Origin: Apoda limacodes
Lineage: Eukaryota > Arthropoda > Insecta > Lepidoptera > Limacodidae
Assembly (NCBI GenBank): GCA_946406115.1
Contig: OX291553.1
Location: forward strand, 3,849,001 to 3,913,000
DNA length: 64,000 bases
Direction: 5' to 3'
Shown: positions 13,233 through 61,636 of the stretch, one piece after another
How the letters are laid out: each line of letters begins with the position of its first letter
Numbering within the stretch: the stretch's first letter is position 1
Translations under genes and position numbers: made by a program
The notes under the pieces: model-generated
Told to the model about the DNA's origin: nothing
Seen by the model: the letters and a program-made list of their open reading frames with translations, nothing else
Database searches by the model: none

Positions 13233-13672
13233 TTGACGGTAGTTGCTCTGATAGCATGGACATTAATGCTGGTGTCCCGCAAGGCTCTGTGCTGTCGCCT
13301 ACGCTGTTTCTACCGCATATCAATGACATGTTGGACATCAACAACATACATTGATATGCAGATGACAGTACTGGAGACGCTTATTACACGGGTCGTGCAA
13401 ACATCCCTCGTTCCGTTGTGGAGAAAACCGCGGAGAACTTGTATCTCAAATCGAGACCACACTGTCCCAGGTCTCTGACTGGGGACGGGTTAACTTGGTC
13501 CGATTCAACCCTACAAAGACACAAGTGTGCGCGTTCACCGCTAAGAAAACTCCATTCACTGTAGTCCCACAATTCCAGAACAGAGGGGAGCCTCTCCATC
13601 TCCAAGACCATTGGGATCCTTGGTGTCGACATCCCCAGCGATGTTCAGTTCCGAGATCATTTACAAGATAAG

Positions 13673-33349: not shown

Positions 33350-34187
33350 TAGCCTATGGACACTTGCAACACCAGGGGAATCACTCGCGCGTTGCCGACC
33401 CTTCAAAAATCCAATTACTTCTGTTTTGAAGCACCTCATACTGTAGTTCTTAGAGAAAACCTTGGCAGGGAGCTCAGTCCACAACCAAAACGTACGCTGG
33501 AGGAAATTTCTCTGAAACCGCACCGTGCGCGACCATTTAGGTTCTAAAGTGTGAGAATGAATTCCCTGCCGATGGCGAGCGGTGCGATGGTAGAAAGTAG
33601 CCGTGGACATCATTTCAAACAATTTTTAAAACACATCCCATTGCACAAGCGGTAGAACACACACAGGGAGGCAATGTCTCTCCTTAGACTTTAGGGCTCG
33701 ATACGGCAAGAGAGTTTGGAATCGTCGACAATTCGCATAACCCGTCATTGAACCGAGTTAAAAGGTCCAAGCTGGTAATCCGAGTTGACCCGCCCAGAGA
33801 TAGCAGCAGTTGTCCATATGGGGCCGGACTTGCGACTTGGAAAGCAGCCACCTTTGCCCCGACGTGAAGTAACGCTTCGCTCTGTTGAGTACACCAATTT
33901 TTTGGGACGCCAGCTTCACCTTGTCTTGCAGATGATCTCAGCAGAACTGAACATCGCAAGGAGATGTCAACACCAAGGAACCCAATGTTTTTGGAAATGG
34001 AGAGGGGGGGTGTTCTGAAATTGTGGGACCACAGTGAATGGGGTTTTTATAGCGGTAAACGCGCACACTTGTGTCTTTGTAGGGTTTAATCGGACCAAGA
34101 TGTCCCGTTCCCATTCAGAGACTGAGATTTAAGACACAAGACAAAAAGACGGATGCTTGCGCGACGGGTGTAATAAGCGTCTCCAGT
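33350..34187 (-). mobile_element. LINE copy C, minus strand, both ends truncated
   Basis: The minus-strand translation gives FEMMSTATFYHRTARHRQG, KWSRTVRFQRNFLQR, LPAKVFSKNYS and FFK/CFKTEVIGFLKGRQRA, then further upstream fragments of the region after the YADD motif. The A-tail is missing at the 33350 end. Frame breaks are frequent, so this is an old copy. Confidence 0.85.
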
Positions 34188-48350: not shown

Positions 48351-49077
48351 TTATTTTGGTATATGAATCTTATTCAAAATGTTTACAATTATATTTAGTA
48401 CTGGATATTTAAAAGCTGTGGATATCAATGAAATTCTTAATATTGCTAACACATTGGAGAGTATGTACCCTCCAATAGCACCAAGATAGCAAGGTATGGG
48501 CCACTGCTGCCACGGAGTGTTCCAATCTAATGGGATTACTACTGCACCAAGCCACGCTCCACCAACTGTAAATAATGCATTGTTCACAAGCATTTCTATT
48601 GCTGTGTCCTTAATCAAAGCTTTTACACCAAACAACAGCTGCATTGTTGCTTCCACACCAGTATGTAAGATTAAAGGAAACACTGTCAGTAAGGTTAATA
48701 ATGCAGAGAGCATCAAGGTTTCTTCATGTGAGTCGAGGAACGGAGCACCGAATAGTATCATTCCAACAAAAAAGCTGAACACAGCGCACAAGAAAAATAT
48801 GCAAGATTTCAACAATTCTCCAATCCGAATCCTTCCTGGTTTGTTTCTCTTTCCATTAGTTTCGGGAGCGGAATTCAAATAAAACGATTTTAAAAGTTCA
48901 GCTACGAAAATCAGTATTAAAATGTAAAAAGAAGAAGCTTTGCCTACTGAATAAAGGACACCTAGATAAGATACAACAGTTACTATACTTGGTAAATAAA
49001 TACATGTTATCAAACATGAAACATTTATTCTTCTCAATTCTAATCTATTATCCGAGGAAAACATCACAGTTATAATT
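48351..49077 (-). CDS. PIGF, GPI ethanolamine-phosphate transferase subunit
   Basis: Phosphatidylinositol-glycan class F protein, an ER membrane partner that stabilises the GPI ethanolamine-phosphate transferases PIGO and PIGG in GPI-anchor synthesis. The coding part is one exon: ATG at 49064, stop at 48351, 237 aa, close to the family length of about 220. Several hydrophobic segments span the protein (roughly 15-60, 85-130, 160-235). The family signature is clear at residues 169-190: GAWLGA..IPLDWNTPWQQWP, followed by CYLGAIGGY. An acceptor TTCTTTCAG sits at 49078-49080, so 13 bases of 5'UTR (49065-49077) are spliced from an upstream exon. A GTG three bases before the ATG is not a eukaryotic start. 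PIGF is divergent from ALAS. Confidence 0.93.
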
Positions 49078-49888
49078 CTGAAAGAATTAAAACAAAATAA
49101 CTGTTTTAAGGTTATTTTTTGGTTTTCTTTTCACCCTTCCTTGTCTAAGGACAGACTTACTAAGGTCTTATACTATGATGCCTAGTCTTTAATCTTTCTT
49201 CATTCTTAGTAATTGTTAAAAAATAATTAGTCTCTATTCACTTCCCAATTTATATTAGGTATAGAAACGAGTAATTCTTGGACACTGTATATCAAAGTAT
49301 TAAAATTTACAAAGCCACATCCTCAGATGTTGTATAGGTACCCTATACATTCTTTTTCCCAATTTTTTTATTAGTTTTATGCTATTTTGTTTCATCCCTA
49401 CTGGTGAAAGAATTTGATACATGTGTGCCATATATTAAAGACGTATATTATACCTACATAGTCCGATCATGTACGTAGTGTTAATAATAATAATGTATTT
49501 TTTAGACATATTACACAGCGCTATCTGGTTCCAAACTAGGTAAAAAAGCGTGTATTATGTAAACGGTTACAAATACTTGTATACTTTTTTTATAAATACA
49601 TACATATCATATGTAAATACACGCGAACTCAAGACAAATATAAATGTTTATCACATAAAAGTGTGTCCTGTGCGGAAATCAAACCACACCTTTTGCACAG
49701 CAGCCGGCCACACTAACAACTAGGCAGCGAGAGAGTACGCCATGATGTACAACATTTTGCGCTTAATGTCAATAATCCAACCAAAGAGAACGAGCACATA
49801 TTTGTGCAGTGTGTCACACAGAATTTACCTTTTTTTACCTTGGCTTGATTATTACATTAAACGCATTGAAGCAGTAAACAGTACTCAC
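49078..49888. other. Putative intron upstream of PIGF
   Basis: AT-rich; contains a minus-strand SINE (49530-49740). A short open stretch at about 49280-49385 on the minus strand has a weak acceptor but no convincing coding signal. Confidence 0.45.
49530..49740 (-). mobile_element. tRNA-derived SINE, minus strand
   Basis: Reverse complement: TGCCTAGTTGTTAGTGTGG, a B-box-like GGTTTGATTTCCG, CACAGGACACACTTT, TTGTCTTGAGTTCGCGTG and an AT-rich tail. Related to the copy at 10560-10682. Confidence 0.6.
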
Positions 49889-51388: not shown

Positions 51389-51395
51389 TATAAAT
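51389..51395 (+). promoter_or_regulatory. TATA box of ALAS
   Basis: TATAAAT placed 32 bases upstream of an initiator at 51419-51424, the canonical spacing. Confidence 0.7.
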
Positions 51396-51418
51396 GGAAG
51401 GCGCTAACGTTCTTGCAA

Positions 51419-51424
51419 TCAGTT
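51419..51424 (+). promoter_or_regulatory. Initiator (TCAGTT), predicted ALAS transcription start
   Basis: TCAGTT matches the arthropod initiator TCAKTY, with the A at 51421 as +1. The spacing to the TATA box supports it. The resulting 5'UTR is 125 nt and contains no upstream ATG. Confidence 0.65.
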
Positions 51425-51444
51425 GCACGTAACAACTTAAGCGA

Positions 51445-51473
51445 AACGTTCGGCTACAGTGTGAGCCAACGTT
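51445..51473 (+). promoter_or_regulatory. Putative iron-responsive element (IRE) in ALAS 5'UTR
   Basis: Read as RNA: AACGUU (51445-51450), unpaired C (51451), GGCUA (51452-51456), loop CAGUGU (51457-51462), GAGCC (51463-51467), AACGUU (51468-51473). The lower stem has six Watson-Crick pairs. The upper stem has four pairs plus one A/G mismatch next to the loop. The loop fits CAGUGN, and the C bulge sits exactly five positions 5' of the loop, the IRE geometry recognised by IRP/aconitase-type proteins. It starts 25 bases after the predicted cap site, within the cap-proximal range needed for translational block. Vertebrate erythroid ALAS2 has an IRE in the same place. The mismatch may weaken binding. 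Confidence 0.65.
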
Positions 51474-51545
51474 AAATTACTTAATCGAAATATTAATATT
51501 ACGAGTGGTCTAAGTGTTAAGGTGAATCTTATCGATTACATAAAA

Positions 51546-53069
51546 ATGCCTTGTCCTTTCTTAGGATCGTTGAACCAAGCCTTCGTAAGAAATTACGGGG
51601 CAGTTTTGGTGAAACAATATGGAAATTACTGCCCAGTCATGGCTCGAAGTTTCCGCTCACTTGGAAACGATGAAACGAAGTGCCCTTTCATTCAGAAGAA
51701 CTCAATAATTGCAGAAGCTCCTAGAGAAATGACAGAAGACATTGTTTACAACCGGCCTTCTTACCAATATGAAAAATTCTTCAATGATCAAATCAGTGCT
51801 AAGAAGAATGATTATTCTTATCGTGTATTCAGGAAGGTGTCCCGTTTAGCTGCTGATGGAATGTACCCACAAGCTTTAGAAGGTCAGGAGAATCGCCAAG
51901 TGACAGTATGGTGTGCAAATGATTATCTTGGAGCTTCTCGTCATCCTGTTGTTCAAGATGCTGCTATTGCTTCCATTAAGTCATATGGTACTGGGGCAGG
52001 TGGGACCCGTAATATTGCTGGAAATTCTCAGATGACTGAGAAACTTGAGGCTGAAATAGCTAAACTTCATAAAAAGCCTGCAGCATTAATATTCAGTTCT
52101 TGTTTTGTTGCAAATGATGCAACATTGTCTACTCTTGGAAAGCTATTGCCTGGGTGTGTTATATATTCTGACGCAGGGAATCACGCTTCAATGATACAAG
52201 GTATTAGAAATAGTCGAGCACCAAAACATATATTTAGGCACAATGATCCCAATCATCTAAGGGAATTACTGGCAGCATCACCAGTTGGTGTTCCAAAACT
52301 AGTCGTTTTTGAGACTGTTCATTCCATGAGTGGTGCTATTTGCCCTCTTGAGGAAATGTGCAATATAGCACATGAATATGGAGCTTTAACTTTTGTGGAT
52401 GAAGTTCATGCTGTGGGATTATATGGAAAACATGGTGCTGGTATTGGGGAAGAGAGAGGTCTGCAGCATATGATAGATATTGTTTCTGGAACATTAGGGA
52501 AAGCATTTGGGAATGTCGGAGGTTACATTGCTGGATCATCACTGTTGGTAGATACAATAAGATCGCTGGCACCAGGTTTCATATTTACAACAGCACTCCC
52601 TCCTCCTACCTTAGCTGGATCTTTAGCAGCCATAAGGTTGTTGGCTAGTGAGGAAGGGAGAACACTCCGAGCAAAGCACCAAGCTATTGTTAAATATTTA
52701 AAAATGTCTTTACTCGTCGCAGGGCTTCCACAGTTACCTTCTGTGAGTCACATAGTGCCTGTTCCTATAAAAGGAGCAGATAAAGTAGCTTTAGTTGCTG
52801 AATCTCTAATGAAAAAGGGGCATTATGTGCAAGCAATAAACTATCCCACCGTAGCACGGGGAGAAGAGAGACTGCGTTTTGCACCAGGACCATACCACAC
52901 TCCTGTAATGATTGATAATTTAATCACTGCCCTCATTGATGCATTCCATGAAAACAACATAAGTTTTAATGAATTTGTTAAAAATGGTGCTTGCCGTGAG
53001 TGTAGTATGGAGTACAAACTCGATGTGGGATATGAAGAACTTCTTAAAGTCCCCATGCAAGTAGCTTAA
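51546..53069 (+). CDS. 5-aminolevulinate synthase (ALAS), complete
   Basis: Mitochondrial PLP enzyme joining glycine and succinyl-CoA to 5-aminolevulinate, the first and rate-limiting step of animal heme synthesis. 507 aa from the first ATG (context ATAAAAATGC); the eight codons before it begin with GTG and are untranslated. The full coding region is uninterrupted. Residues 1-55 are the basic presequence, with three Cys-Pro heme-regulatory-type pairs (C3P4, C29P30, C46P47). The catalytic core is class-II alpha-oxoamine synthase: [13 protein letters not shown] (122-134), [12 protein letters not shown] (148-159), [11 protein letters not shown] (D285 for the PLP ring nitrogen, H288), [12 protein letters not shown] (K319, Schiff base), and [11 protein letters not shown] near 442-452. 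No key residue is missing. Insect ALAS proteins are usually of similar length. It is divergent from PIGF and convergent with CDC40. Confidence 0.98.
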
Positions 53070-53247: not shown

Positions 53248-53425
53248 TTAATCCCAATATTTGATAACACCATCCCAACCAGCAGTTAGCAGTTTGCTGG
53301 GCTCATGGGGATGCCACAGAGATGTGATGCAGACTCCATCATGAGCTTTCCACTTCTTGTATAGCTTGGTTGTTTTCCAATCCCAAATGTAACATTTCCC
53401 GTCTGCATCACCAGATACTAGGTAG
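53248..53425 (-). CDS. CDC40/PRP17 pre-mRNA splicing factor, terminal exon
   Basis: Last exon of the WD40-repeat splicing factor CDC40 (PRP17), needed for the second catalytic step of pre-mRNA splicing in the nucleus. After the acceptor TTGTTACAG the exon gives one base of a split codon, then YLVSGDADGKCYIWDWKTTK, LYKKWKAHDGVCITSLWHPH and EPSKLLTAGWDGVIKYWD before TAA. These are the last two WD40 blades: the GD-x-(D/N)-GK-x-x-IWDWKTTKLY motif and the C-terminal GWDG-x-IK-x-WD-stop are family hallmarks. The upstream exons should lie at higher coordinates or beyond the window; I could not identify them in 53426-64000. Confidence 0.93.
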
Positions 53426-59958: not shown

Positions 59959-61636
59959 TTTTTTTTTTTTTTATATACCACTAAGGTGGCAAACAAGCAC
60001 ACGGTCCGCTTGATGGTAAGCGGTCACCATGGCCTACGGACGCTTGTAACACCAGGGGTAATACTCGCGCGTTGCCAACCCTTCAAAAATCGAATAACTT
60101 CTTTCTTGAAGAACCCCATACTGTAGTCCTTAGAGAAAACCTTGGCAGGGAGGTCATTCCACAACCCAAGCGTTAGCGGGTAAGTTTCTCTGTAACCGCA
60201 CTGTACGCGACCATTTCGGTTTAAGAGTGTAAGAATAAATTTCCTGCCGATGGCGAGCGGTGCGATGGTAGAAATTGCCGTGGGCATCATTTCGAACAAT
60301 TCCTCAGAACACATCCCATTGTACAAGTGTTAGAACACACACAGGGAGACAGTCTCTCCTCAGACTTAAGGTTTCGATACGGCAAGTGAGTTTGGGATCG
60401 TCGACAATTTTCACAGCCCGTCGTTGAACCGAGTCAAAAGGGCCAAGCTGGTATCCGGGTGCACCCGCCCAGAGATGGCAGCAGTACTCCATATGGGGCC
60501 GAACTTGCGACTTGTATAGCAGCAACCTCTGCTCCGACATGAAGTACTGCCTCGCTCTGTTGAGTACACCTAGTTTTTTGGACGCCAAGGCTCCCAATGC
60601 TCTTGGAGATGGAGAGGGGACTGTTCTGGAATTGTGGGACTACAGTGAATAGGGTTTTCTTAGCGGTGTACGCACAGACTTGTGTCTTTATATGGTTGAA
60701 TCGGACCAAGTTTACCCGTCCCCAGTCAGAGACCTTGGACAGTGTGGTCTCGATTTGAGACACAAGTTCTCCGCGGCTTTCCTCCACAACGGCACGAGGG
60801 ATGTTTGCACGACCCGTGTAATAAGCGTCTACAGTACTGTCATCTGCATAGCAATTCATGTTGTTGATGTCCAACATATCATTGATATGCAGTTGAAACA
60901 GCGTAGGAGACAGCACAGAGCCTTGCGGGACACCAGCATTAACGTCTATGCTATCAGAGCAACTACCGTCAACTACGGTTCGTATGCGTCTGCCGGACAA
61001 AAAGCTAGCCACCCATTTGCACAAACCCTCGGGCACTCCGTGCCAGACCCGATCGAACGCCATCGCTATGTTCAGGCTACATGCCAATGCCTCCCCCTGA
61101 CTCTCAATGGCTAGTGCCCAGCGGTGTGTTAAATACACTAGAAGGTCATCAGTCGAGCGACCGTGGCGAAAGCCATATTGACGGTCACTGACCAGGTCGT
61201 GTTCTTCTAGGTATCTTAGAAGCTGTATGTTGATCACACGCTCCATCACCTTGGAGAGGAGAGAGGTAATAGCGATAGGCCTGTAATTCGATGGATCTGA
61301 GCTACCGCCTTTTTTGGGCAGCGGATGCACATTCGCAGTTTTCCATGAAGACGGATATTGCCTAGTGTGGTAGGAAAGCGCGAAGAGGCGCGTGAGTACA
61401 GGACATTACTCAGGAGCACACTGCTTAAGCAGCACTGCTGGTATACCGCCTGGCCCACTCGACTTATGAACGTCTAGAGAAAGCAACGCCCGCCGGACCT
61501 CCCGCTGTGTTATGGAGATTTCCGGCATGGTCTTACCGCTCCACGGTATAGTAGGTGGTACAGCGCCTTCATCGTTCATATTCGAGTTTGAGACAAAGAG
61601 ACTGCCCAGTCAGCAGATCGGCTTTCTCTTTTTTTC
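59959..61636 (-). mobile_element. LINE copy B, minus strand, 5'-truncated, best-preserved RT core
   Basis: T-run (A-tail on the minus strand) at 59959-59972, then the family tail. Upstream on the minus strand the RT is open from 61330 to 60434: PSNYRPIAITSLLSKVMERV, RQYGFRHGRSTDDLLVYLTH, LNIAMAFDRVWHG (motif A Asp kept), NAGVPQGSVLSPTLFQLHIN (motif B), NCYADDSTVD (motif C intact). About ten residues after motif A are deleted in frame compared with copy A, and there is a stop near 61400. The C-terminal part is shifted in frame (60304-60597, 60024-60326). The element is cut at 61636 in the pre-RT region. Confidence 0.9.
60434..61330 (-). pseudogene. LINE copy B reverse transcriptase core
   Basis: A 298-codon open frame containing RT motifs A (AFDRVWH), B (GVPQGSVLSP) and C (YADDS). 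It is incomplete at both ends relative to the intact ORF2 of such elements, lacks the endonuclease and ends in a shifted frame, so it is not functional. Opposite-strand open frames (60680-61114) are shadows. Confidence 0.88.

Follow-up and report, generated by a model that had tools for sequence, protein, structure and literature searches.

Where an iron-responsive element (IRE) lies close to the cap, a bound IRP blocks loading of the 43S complex, and this is the general mechanism of IRE control. Position relative to the cap is described as a crucial factor in IRE translational control in the available part of PMC5666808, which also gives a predicted IRE on the ferritin heavy chain of the eri-silkworm and Bombyx. 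One of the ten verified IRE genes listed in PMC8466369 (in excerpt) is vertebrate ALAS2. The survey of Tzou et al. 2014, as far as its accessible text goes, predicts IREs in the leaders of 5-aminolevulinate synthase (ALAS) mRNAs of the honey bee (medium quality), a tunicate (high), a sea urchin (high) and a sea anemone (medium), corresponding to 1/2 arthropods, 1/2 chordates (the tunicate), 1/1 sea urchin and 1/1 sea anemone (PMC3904948). The same text reports a predicted IRE on ALAS2 in five of five mammals and on ALAS1 in none of the five, with three of four teleosts carrying one on ALAS1. The case described here has a parallel in Drosophila, where the mRNA of another mitochondrial enzyme, SdhB, carries a 5' IRE that the excerpt of PMC6884552 calls validated. 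The literature excerpts consulted contained no lepidopteran ALAS IRE, and an earlier mention in Piccinelli and Samuelsson 2007 is possible. By these partial sources, IREs have already been predicted in other invertebrate ALAS leaders, and a lepidopteran ALAS adds a new lineage to them.

The window (the whole 64-kb stretch of Apoda limacodes DNA that was analysed) contains an ALAS gene whose frame matches Aminotran_1_2 with 204 bits and Preseq_ALAS with 22.9 bits (cut-off 21), both above cut-off. Among 120 relatives listed, the named lepidopteran ALAS proteins (Loxostege, Cydia, Papilio, Diatraea, Pieris, Zerene, Pectinophora, Eumeta and a shorter Phthorimaea record) are 83-88% identical to it, and the named non-lepidopteran arthropod ALAS proteins are 49-62% identical. 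These matches bear out the first-pass annotation, made from the sequence of the window, in assigning the gene to insect ALAS. The genome (800.3 Mb, 31 contigs) yielded a single full-length ALAS, together with four further partial matches, 36-44% identical, that appear to be other enzymes sharing its fold. The coding region has no intron, while ALAS records from several other insects carry isoform names (X1/X2); the lack of introns would be consistent with an old retrocopy that took the place of its parent. An ALAS scan of a viral contig collection returned seven loci at 47-48% identity, none of them near the lepidopteran range, and a DNA pattern for the MPCPFL start was present in no viral contig and in six genome contigs, all titled bacterial MAGs. 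Three Cys-Pro pairs at the ALAS N terminus (MPCPFL, YCPVM and KCPFI) were considered as heme regulatory motifs; by eye, none of the three follows the strict HRM_t rule as worded in the available text of PMC3904948.

The + strand at 51445-51473 reads AACGTT-C-GGCTA-CAGTGT-GAGCC-AACGTT (letters: AACGTTCGGCTACAGTGTGAGCCAACGTT), and both the coordinates and the fold proposed in the first-pass annotation, AACGUU, a bulged C, GGCUA, a CAGUGU loop, GAGCC and AACGUU, are exact. With residues numbered by the last two digits of their position (514xx), the lower stem pairs A45-U73, A46-U72, C47-G71, G48-C70, U49-A69 and U50-A68, C51 is bulged, and the upper stem pairs G52-C67, G53-C66, C54-G65 and U55-A64, followed by the A56/G63 mismatch and a loop from C57 to U62. 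The canonical register gives 10 of 11 stem pairs (lower 6/6, upper 4/5; Table 1). The loop is a CAGUGN hexaloop at the level of sequence, and the unpaired C is exactly five nucleotides 5' of it, flanked by pairs with probabilities of 0.97 and 1.00. The N7-N25 position is paired as U50-A68, and N25 is not G, in line with the H25 rule given in a figure legend of PMC7034838. A five-bp upper stem is expected and four pairs are observed, the mismatch adjoining the loop. The loop, the C bulge in its register and the fully paired lower stem had been named as IRE features and the A/G pair as the only departure, and both statements were confirmed.

Table 1. Coordinates of the ALAS locus and of other IRE-like sites. 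Positions are those of the window unless a contig or locus is given; fractions are paired positions in the upper (of five) and lower (of six) stem.
Feature	Position	Strand	Remarks
TATA box TATAAAT	51389..51395	+	first T at -32 from predicted transcription start
Initiator TCAGTT	51419..51424	+	predicted transcription start A51421, from motif and spacing
Predicted 125-nt 5' leader	51421..51545	+	from predicted transcription start to ALAS ATG
IRE-like hairpin	51445..51473	+	+25 to +53 from predicted cap
Lower stem, 5' strand AACGUU	51445..51450	+	6/6 paired with 51468-51473
Bulged C, IRE position C8	51451..51451	+	predicted fold
Upper stem, 5' strand GGCUA	51452..51456	+	4 Watson-Crick pairs, A56/G63 mismatch
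Apical loop CAGUGU (SIREs motif 1)	51457..51462	+	sequence; motif table in excerpt of PMC12230718
Upper stem, 3' strand GAGCC	51463..51467	+	predicted pairing
Lower stem, 3' strand AACGUU	51468..51473	+	predicted pairing
5-Aminolevulinate synthase (ALAS), 507 aa	51546..53069	+	uninterrupted frame, stop TAA 53067-53069
Weaker IRE-like site	14057	+	4/5, 3/6 (widened scan)
Weaker IRE-like site	near 33498-33526	-	4/5, 3/6 (widened scan; position converted by hand)
Weaker IRE-like site	near 13461-13489	-	4/5, 4/6 (widened scan; position converted by hand)
Ferritin heavy-chain IRE AGCCTT-C-TGCAC-CAGTGA-GTGTA-AAGGCT	C3:8450835-8450863 (L016:5835-5863)	+	5/5, 6/6
Ferritin light-chain IRE TGCCTT-C-TGCGC-CAGTGT-GTGTA-AAGGTT	C3:8449893-8449921 (L016:4893-4921)	-	5/5, 5/6

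The isolated 29 nucleotides fold at -10.2 kcal/mol (ViennaRNA), and 4 of 200 shuffles were equally stable. Addition of 10 nt of flank on each side raised this count to 19 of 200 (ViennaRNA), and the whole 126-nt leader is of ordinary stability, with 69 of 200 shuffles as good. When the 128-nt leader is folded, each of the ten canonical pairs reaches a probability of 0.85 to 1.00. Because the leader is no stabler than its shuffles, the case rests on the specific architecture and not on general stability.

The A56/G63 position is the sole departure from the canonical rule, and the predicted apices that involve it differ in what they do to the loop. A nested apex with A56-U62 and C57-G61 pairs and G63 extruded folds at -9.5 versus -10.2 kcal/mol, a cost of 0.7 kcal/mol, and has a probability of 0.20. 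A competing apex of the isolated hairpin, with C57-G63 at 0.41 and A58-U62 at 0.27, would spoil the loop and is predicted more often (0.41) than the favoured A56-U62/C57-G61 form (0.20). In the canonical IRE bound to IRP1, loop base 6 is the extruded base. In the favoured apex, A56 would pair with this loop base, U62, and stack under C57-G61, and G63 would be extruded in its place; the AGU triloop and the 5'-strand spacing to the bulged C would both be retained. It is a guess that IRP1 binding could select this competent apex over the C57-G63 form. The available part of PMC4977773 describes non-canonical IREs whose upper stems are mismatched or bulged on the 3' side, and SIREs permits one upper-stem mismatch according to the same legend of PMC7034838. 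Judged from the modelled folds, the A/G position is probably tolerated.

The rarity of the motif was measured with a pattern of CAGTG preceded six bases earlier by C, counting the upper pairs out of five and the lower pairs out of six. Scanning both strands of the 64-kb window returned one site with at least 4/5 upper and 6/6 lower pairs, the ALAS hairpin, which was still the single site when the thresholds were relaxed to at least 3/5 and at least 4/6. Widening the scan to CAGAG at thresholds of at least 4/5 and at least 3/6 added three sites, all weaker than the ALAS hairpin. From the dinucleotide composition of the window, the chance expectation at the level of at least 4/5 and 6/6 is ~3e-6 per 126-nt leader and 0.003-0.006 per window. 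CAGTG is commoner in the window than this model predicts (119 seen versus 74 expected), which would raise the per-leader chance to ~5e-6. A control of 17 stretches of the same genome (170 kb, both strands) contained no site at thresholds of at least 4/5 and at least 4/6 and two at the looser setting of at least 3/5 and at least 4/6. Scaled from the window estimate, ~43 equally good sites are expected by chance over 800 Mb, and the hairpin is therefore informative through its position before ALAS. SIREs 3.0 assigns good-quality IREs to 12.13% of human transcripts, and motif prediction alone is unspecific (PMC12230718, in part).

Rfam (IRE models RF00037 and RF02253) at the gathering threshold gave no IRE match in the 64-kb window. 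Under permissive settings IRE_II aligned end to end at 51444-51474 with 25.4 bits and E = 0.014, compared with a gathering score of 30, and IRE_I did not list the ALAS hairpin at E of 10 or less. The genome's two ferritin IREs reach 22.3 bits (IRE_I, cut-off 34) and 21.7 bits (IRE_II, cut-off 30), and within IRE_II the ALAS hairpin stands 3.7 bits above the light-chain ferritin IRE. Neither the ALAS hairpin nor either ferritin IRE reaches its cut-off, which is a tool threshold and not a biological feature. Since the ferritin IREs are likewise below cut-off, the missed gathering score of the ALAS hairpin counts little, and the Rfam miss probably reflects models fitted to other lineages. A genome-wide Rfam IRE run, in which 82 of 260,668 and 87 of 96,571 candidates were scored, gave one IRE_I match (C28, 22.2 bits, E = 8); it missed the ALAS hairpin as well as both ferritin IREs and is for this reason uninformative on the number of IREs in the genome.

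Transcription is predicted to start at A51421 from a TATA box and an initiator at suitable spacing. The expected number of such pairs in 64 kb is 0.41 per strand; two were seen on the + strand (51389 and 58719) and none on the - strand, or 2 versus 0.8 expected for both strands together. With the start placed by these motifs, the hairpin begins 24 nt after the predicted cap. The stretch 51421-51548 contains no upstream AUG, its sole ATG being the ALAS start at 51546, and it has no pyrimidine-rich splice acceptor and one donor-like GTRAG word, at 51461. The palindrome AACGTT occurs three times within 68 bases around the predicted start, at 51406-51411, 51445-51450 and 51468-51473, and the copy at 51406 is upstream of that start. 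Across the window AACGTT is not enriched, with 25 seen versus 21.8 expected.

The same genome was searched for the partners of an IRE. In 59 kb surrounding the ferritin cluster, the CAGTG scan gave exactly two sites at every setting from at least 4/5 and at least 5/6 down to at least 3/5 and at least 4/6. A looser scan (CAGTG or CAGAG, at least 4/5, at least 3/6) returned five sites, the two ferritin IREs and three with only 3/6 lower pairs. The heavy-chain IRE precedes, by 89 nt, the first ATG of a start that resembles a signal peptide, and the + strand exon downstream of it matches Ferritin heavy chain 1z6o_M with 71 bits. The light-chain IRE is followed by a splice-donor-like GTAAGT, and the - strand exon downstream of it matches Ferritin light chain 1z6o_A with 131 bits. 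From order and strand we infer that each IRE shares a transcript with the exons downstream of it. The two ferritin genes are head-to-head with one IRE each, ~0.9 kb apart. Another ferritin-domain frame, 158 aa long and without introns, is located on the - strand at C13:9918519-9918932, and its 3.4-kb locus contained no IRE-like site at thresholds of at least 4/5 and at least 4/6.

The aconitase family is represented by 12 exon-type matches in the genome, seven on C2 over 79 kb and five on C11. The one C2 exon compared scored 90 bits with IRP1 2b3x, 89 with 3sn2/3snp and 36 with mitochondrial aconitase, and the one C11 exon compared scored 122 bits with mitochondrial aconitase and 26 with IRP1. 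By these scores an IRP1-type gene is present on C2, where the matches may make up one or two genes. The arginine in the HLR motif is kept in the C2 exon, and we take it to be an IRE-contacting arginine of IRP1. On this sequence evidence the species runs an IRE system. Two SDHB-like genes (C25:20107161 and C24:14799816) each have a Fer2_3 domain in one open frame. No IRE-like site (CAGTG/CAGAG, down to 3/5 and 3/6, gene strand) was present in the 680 and 630 nt upstream of them; in the C25 gene an ATG is closely preceded by TTTTTTTAG, and a first exon may accordingly lie 5' of the scanned stretch.

The ALAS hairpin shares with vertebrate ALAS2 the type of mRNA, the 5' location of the IRE, the C bulge and the CAGUGN loop, and the expected mode is likewise translational repression by IRP in low iron. 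It differs in its A/G position adjoining the loop and in its host, since the predicted IRE of Apoda limacodes is on the only full-length ALAS found, whereas the mammalian IRE is on erythroid ALAS2 and not on ALAS1. The predicted ALAS IREs of the honey bee, tunicate, sea urchin and sea anemone have the same 5' UTR location; Lepidoptera are not among the cases named in the available text of that survey, and the comparison covers their location (PMC3904948). The lepidopteran ferritin IREs of the same genome have the same bulged C and CAGUGN loop and were found by the same scan. Both ferritin IREs have 5/5 upper pairs compared with 4/5 in the ALAS hairpin, and the stems differ (heavy chain TGCAC/GTGTA and AGCCTT/AAGGCT versus ALAS GGCTA/GAGCC and AACGTT/AACGTT).

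We consider it likely that 51445-51473 is a genuine IRE. It lies in the predicted leader of the one full-length ALAS identified in the genome, and at low iron it is predicted to allow IRP1 to stop translation of the mRNA. If the cap is at 51421, the hairpin would be near enough to it for bound IRP1 to hinder 43S loading. In iron-replete cells IRP1 would take up an Fe-S cluster and leave the RNA, and ALAS would be made; in iron-poor cells heme synthesis would be repressed and porphyrins would not accumulate. The first-pass interpretation, that heme synthesis in this insect is coupled to iron at translation, is supported in part. An IRE-shaped hairpin on a lepidopteran ALAS, cap-proximal if the TATA/initiator prediction is right, and the ferritin IREs and IRP1-type gene in the genome favour it; an IRE in an invertebrate ALAS leader is the part that is not new (PMC3904948, in excerpt).

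Points against a genuine IRE are the A/G position beside the loop, the competing apex, the IRE_II score below cut-off with no IRE_I listing, the low specificity of motif prediction and the further AACGTT at 51406. It also counts against it that the hairpin comes from one species, that the start site is placed by motifs, that the leader's overall fold is ordinary and that one of the two arthropod ALAS leaders in the published survey is without an IRE (PMC3904948, in the part available). The single species and the ordinary fold, together with the A/G mismatch adjoining the loop and the ~43 comparable sites expected somewhere in 800 Mb, also speak for a chance hairpin, in which CAGTGT happens to fall inside a short inverted repeat and binds no IRP. 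This is unlikely: the expectation is ~3e-6 per leader, the 170 kb of the same genome contained no such site, and the hairpin is in the predicted cap-proximal leader of an enzyme whose erythroid form is a vertebrate IRE target.

The mismatch could also mark an ancestral ALAS-leader IRE that is degenerating, the A/G change having lowered the affinity for IRP1 to a point where little or no iron control is left. The sole canonical departure does adjoin the loop, the loop-spoiling C57-G63 apex is predicted at 0.41, both ferritin IREs of the genome have complete upper stems, and the predicted bee and deuterostome ALAS IREs make inheritance possible (PMC3904948, in part). Decay of this kind is nonetheless quite improbable, with 10/11 pairs, C8 and the loop sequence all intact and a continuous apical stack available through A56-U62 at a cost of 0.7 kcal/mol. 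It is very improbable that the element acts in DNA, with the AACGTT palindromes (51406, 51445 and 51468) as promoter-proximal transcription-factor sites and the hairpin as their by-product; the three copies in 68 bases around the predicted start would suit such sites, but AACGTT is not enriched in the window, and the bulged C, the GGCU/AGCC stem and the CAGUGU loop in exact IRE register would be left unexplained.

If the hairpin is a genuine IRE, iron would directly gate heme synthesis in an insect order that eats mostly iron-poor plant tissue and needs heme for detoxifying P450s. Because only one full-length ALAS was found, housekeeping heme would also be under this control, in contrast to mammals, which divide the task between ALAS1 and ALAS2. 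Taken with the predictions for bee, tunicate, sea urchin and sea anemone, it makes testable whether animals inherited iron control of ALAS from a common ancestor and lost it repeatedly or gained it several times. A more far-reaching proposal is doubtful and is put forward tentatively. It holds that the hairpin is a shifted-apex IRE, in which the stem pairs with loop base 6 and the base after it is extruded, in a form compatible with IRP1, and that in Lepidoptera iron acts through this one IRE, on a single-copy ALAS free of introns, to switch the whole heme supply, and not only a blood-cell branch, at the level of translation.

Further features were noted on the - strand of the window around the ALAS gene. 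The last exon of a convergent gene, with Pre-mRNA-processing factor 17 among its closest solved relatives, is at 53251-53400, and the stop of this gene is ~180 bases past the ALAS stop. A frame at 48354-49130 encodes PIG-F, a GPI-anchor biosynthesis protein. A retroelement reverse-transcriptase frame (RVT_1) is located at 60437-61405, and similar peptides are present in the ferritin cluster.
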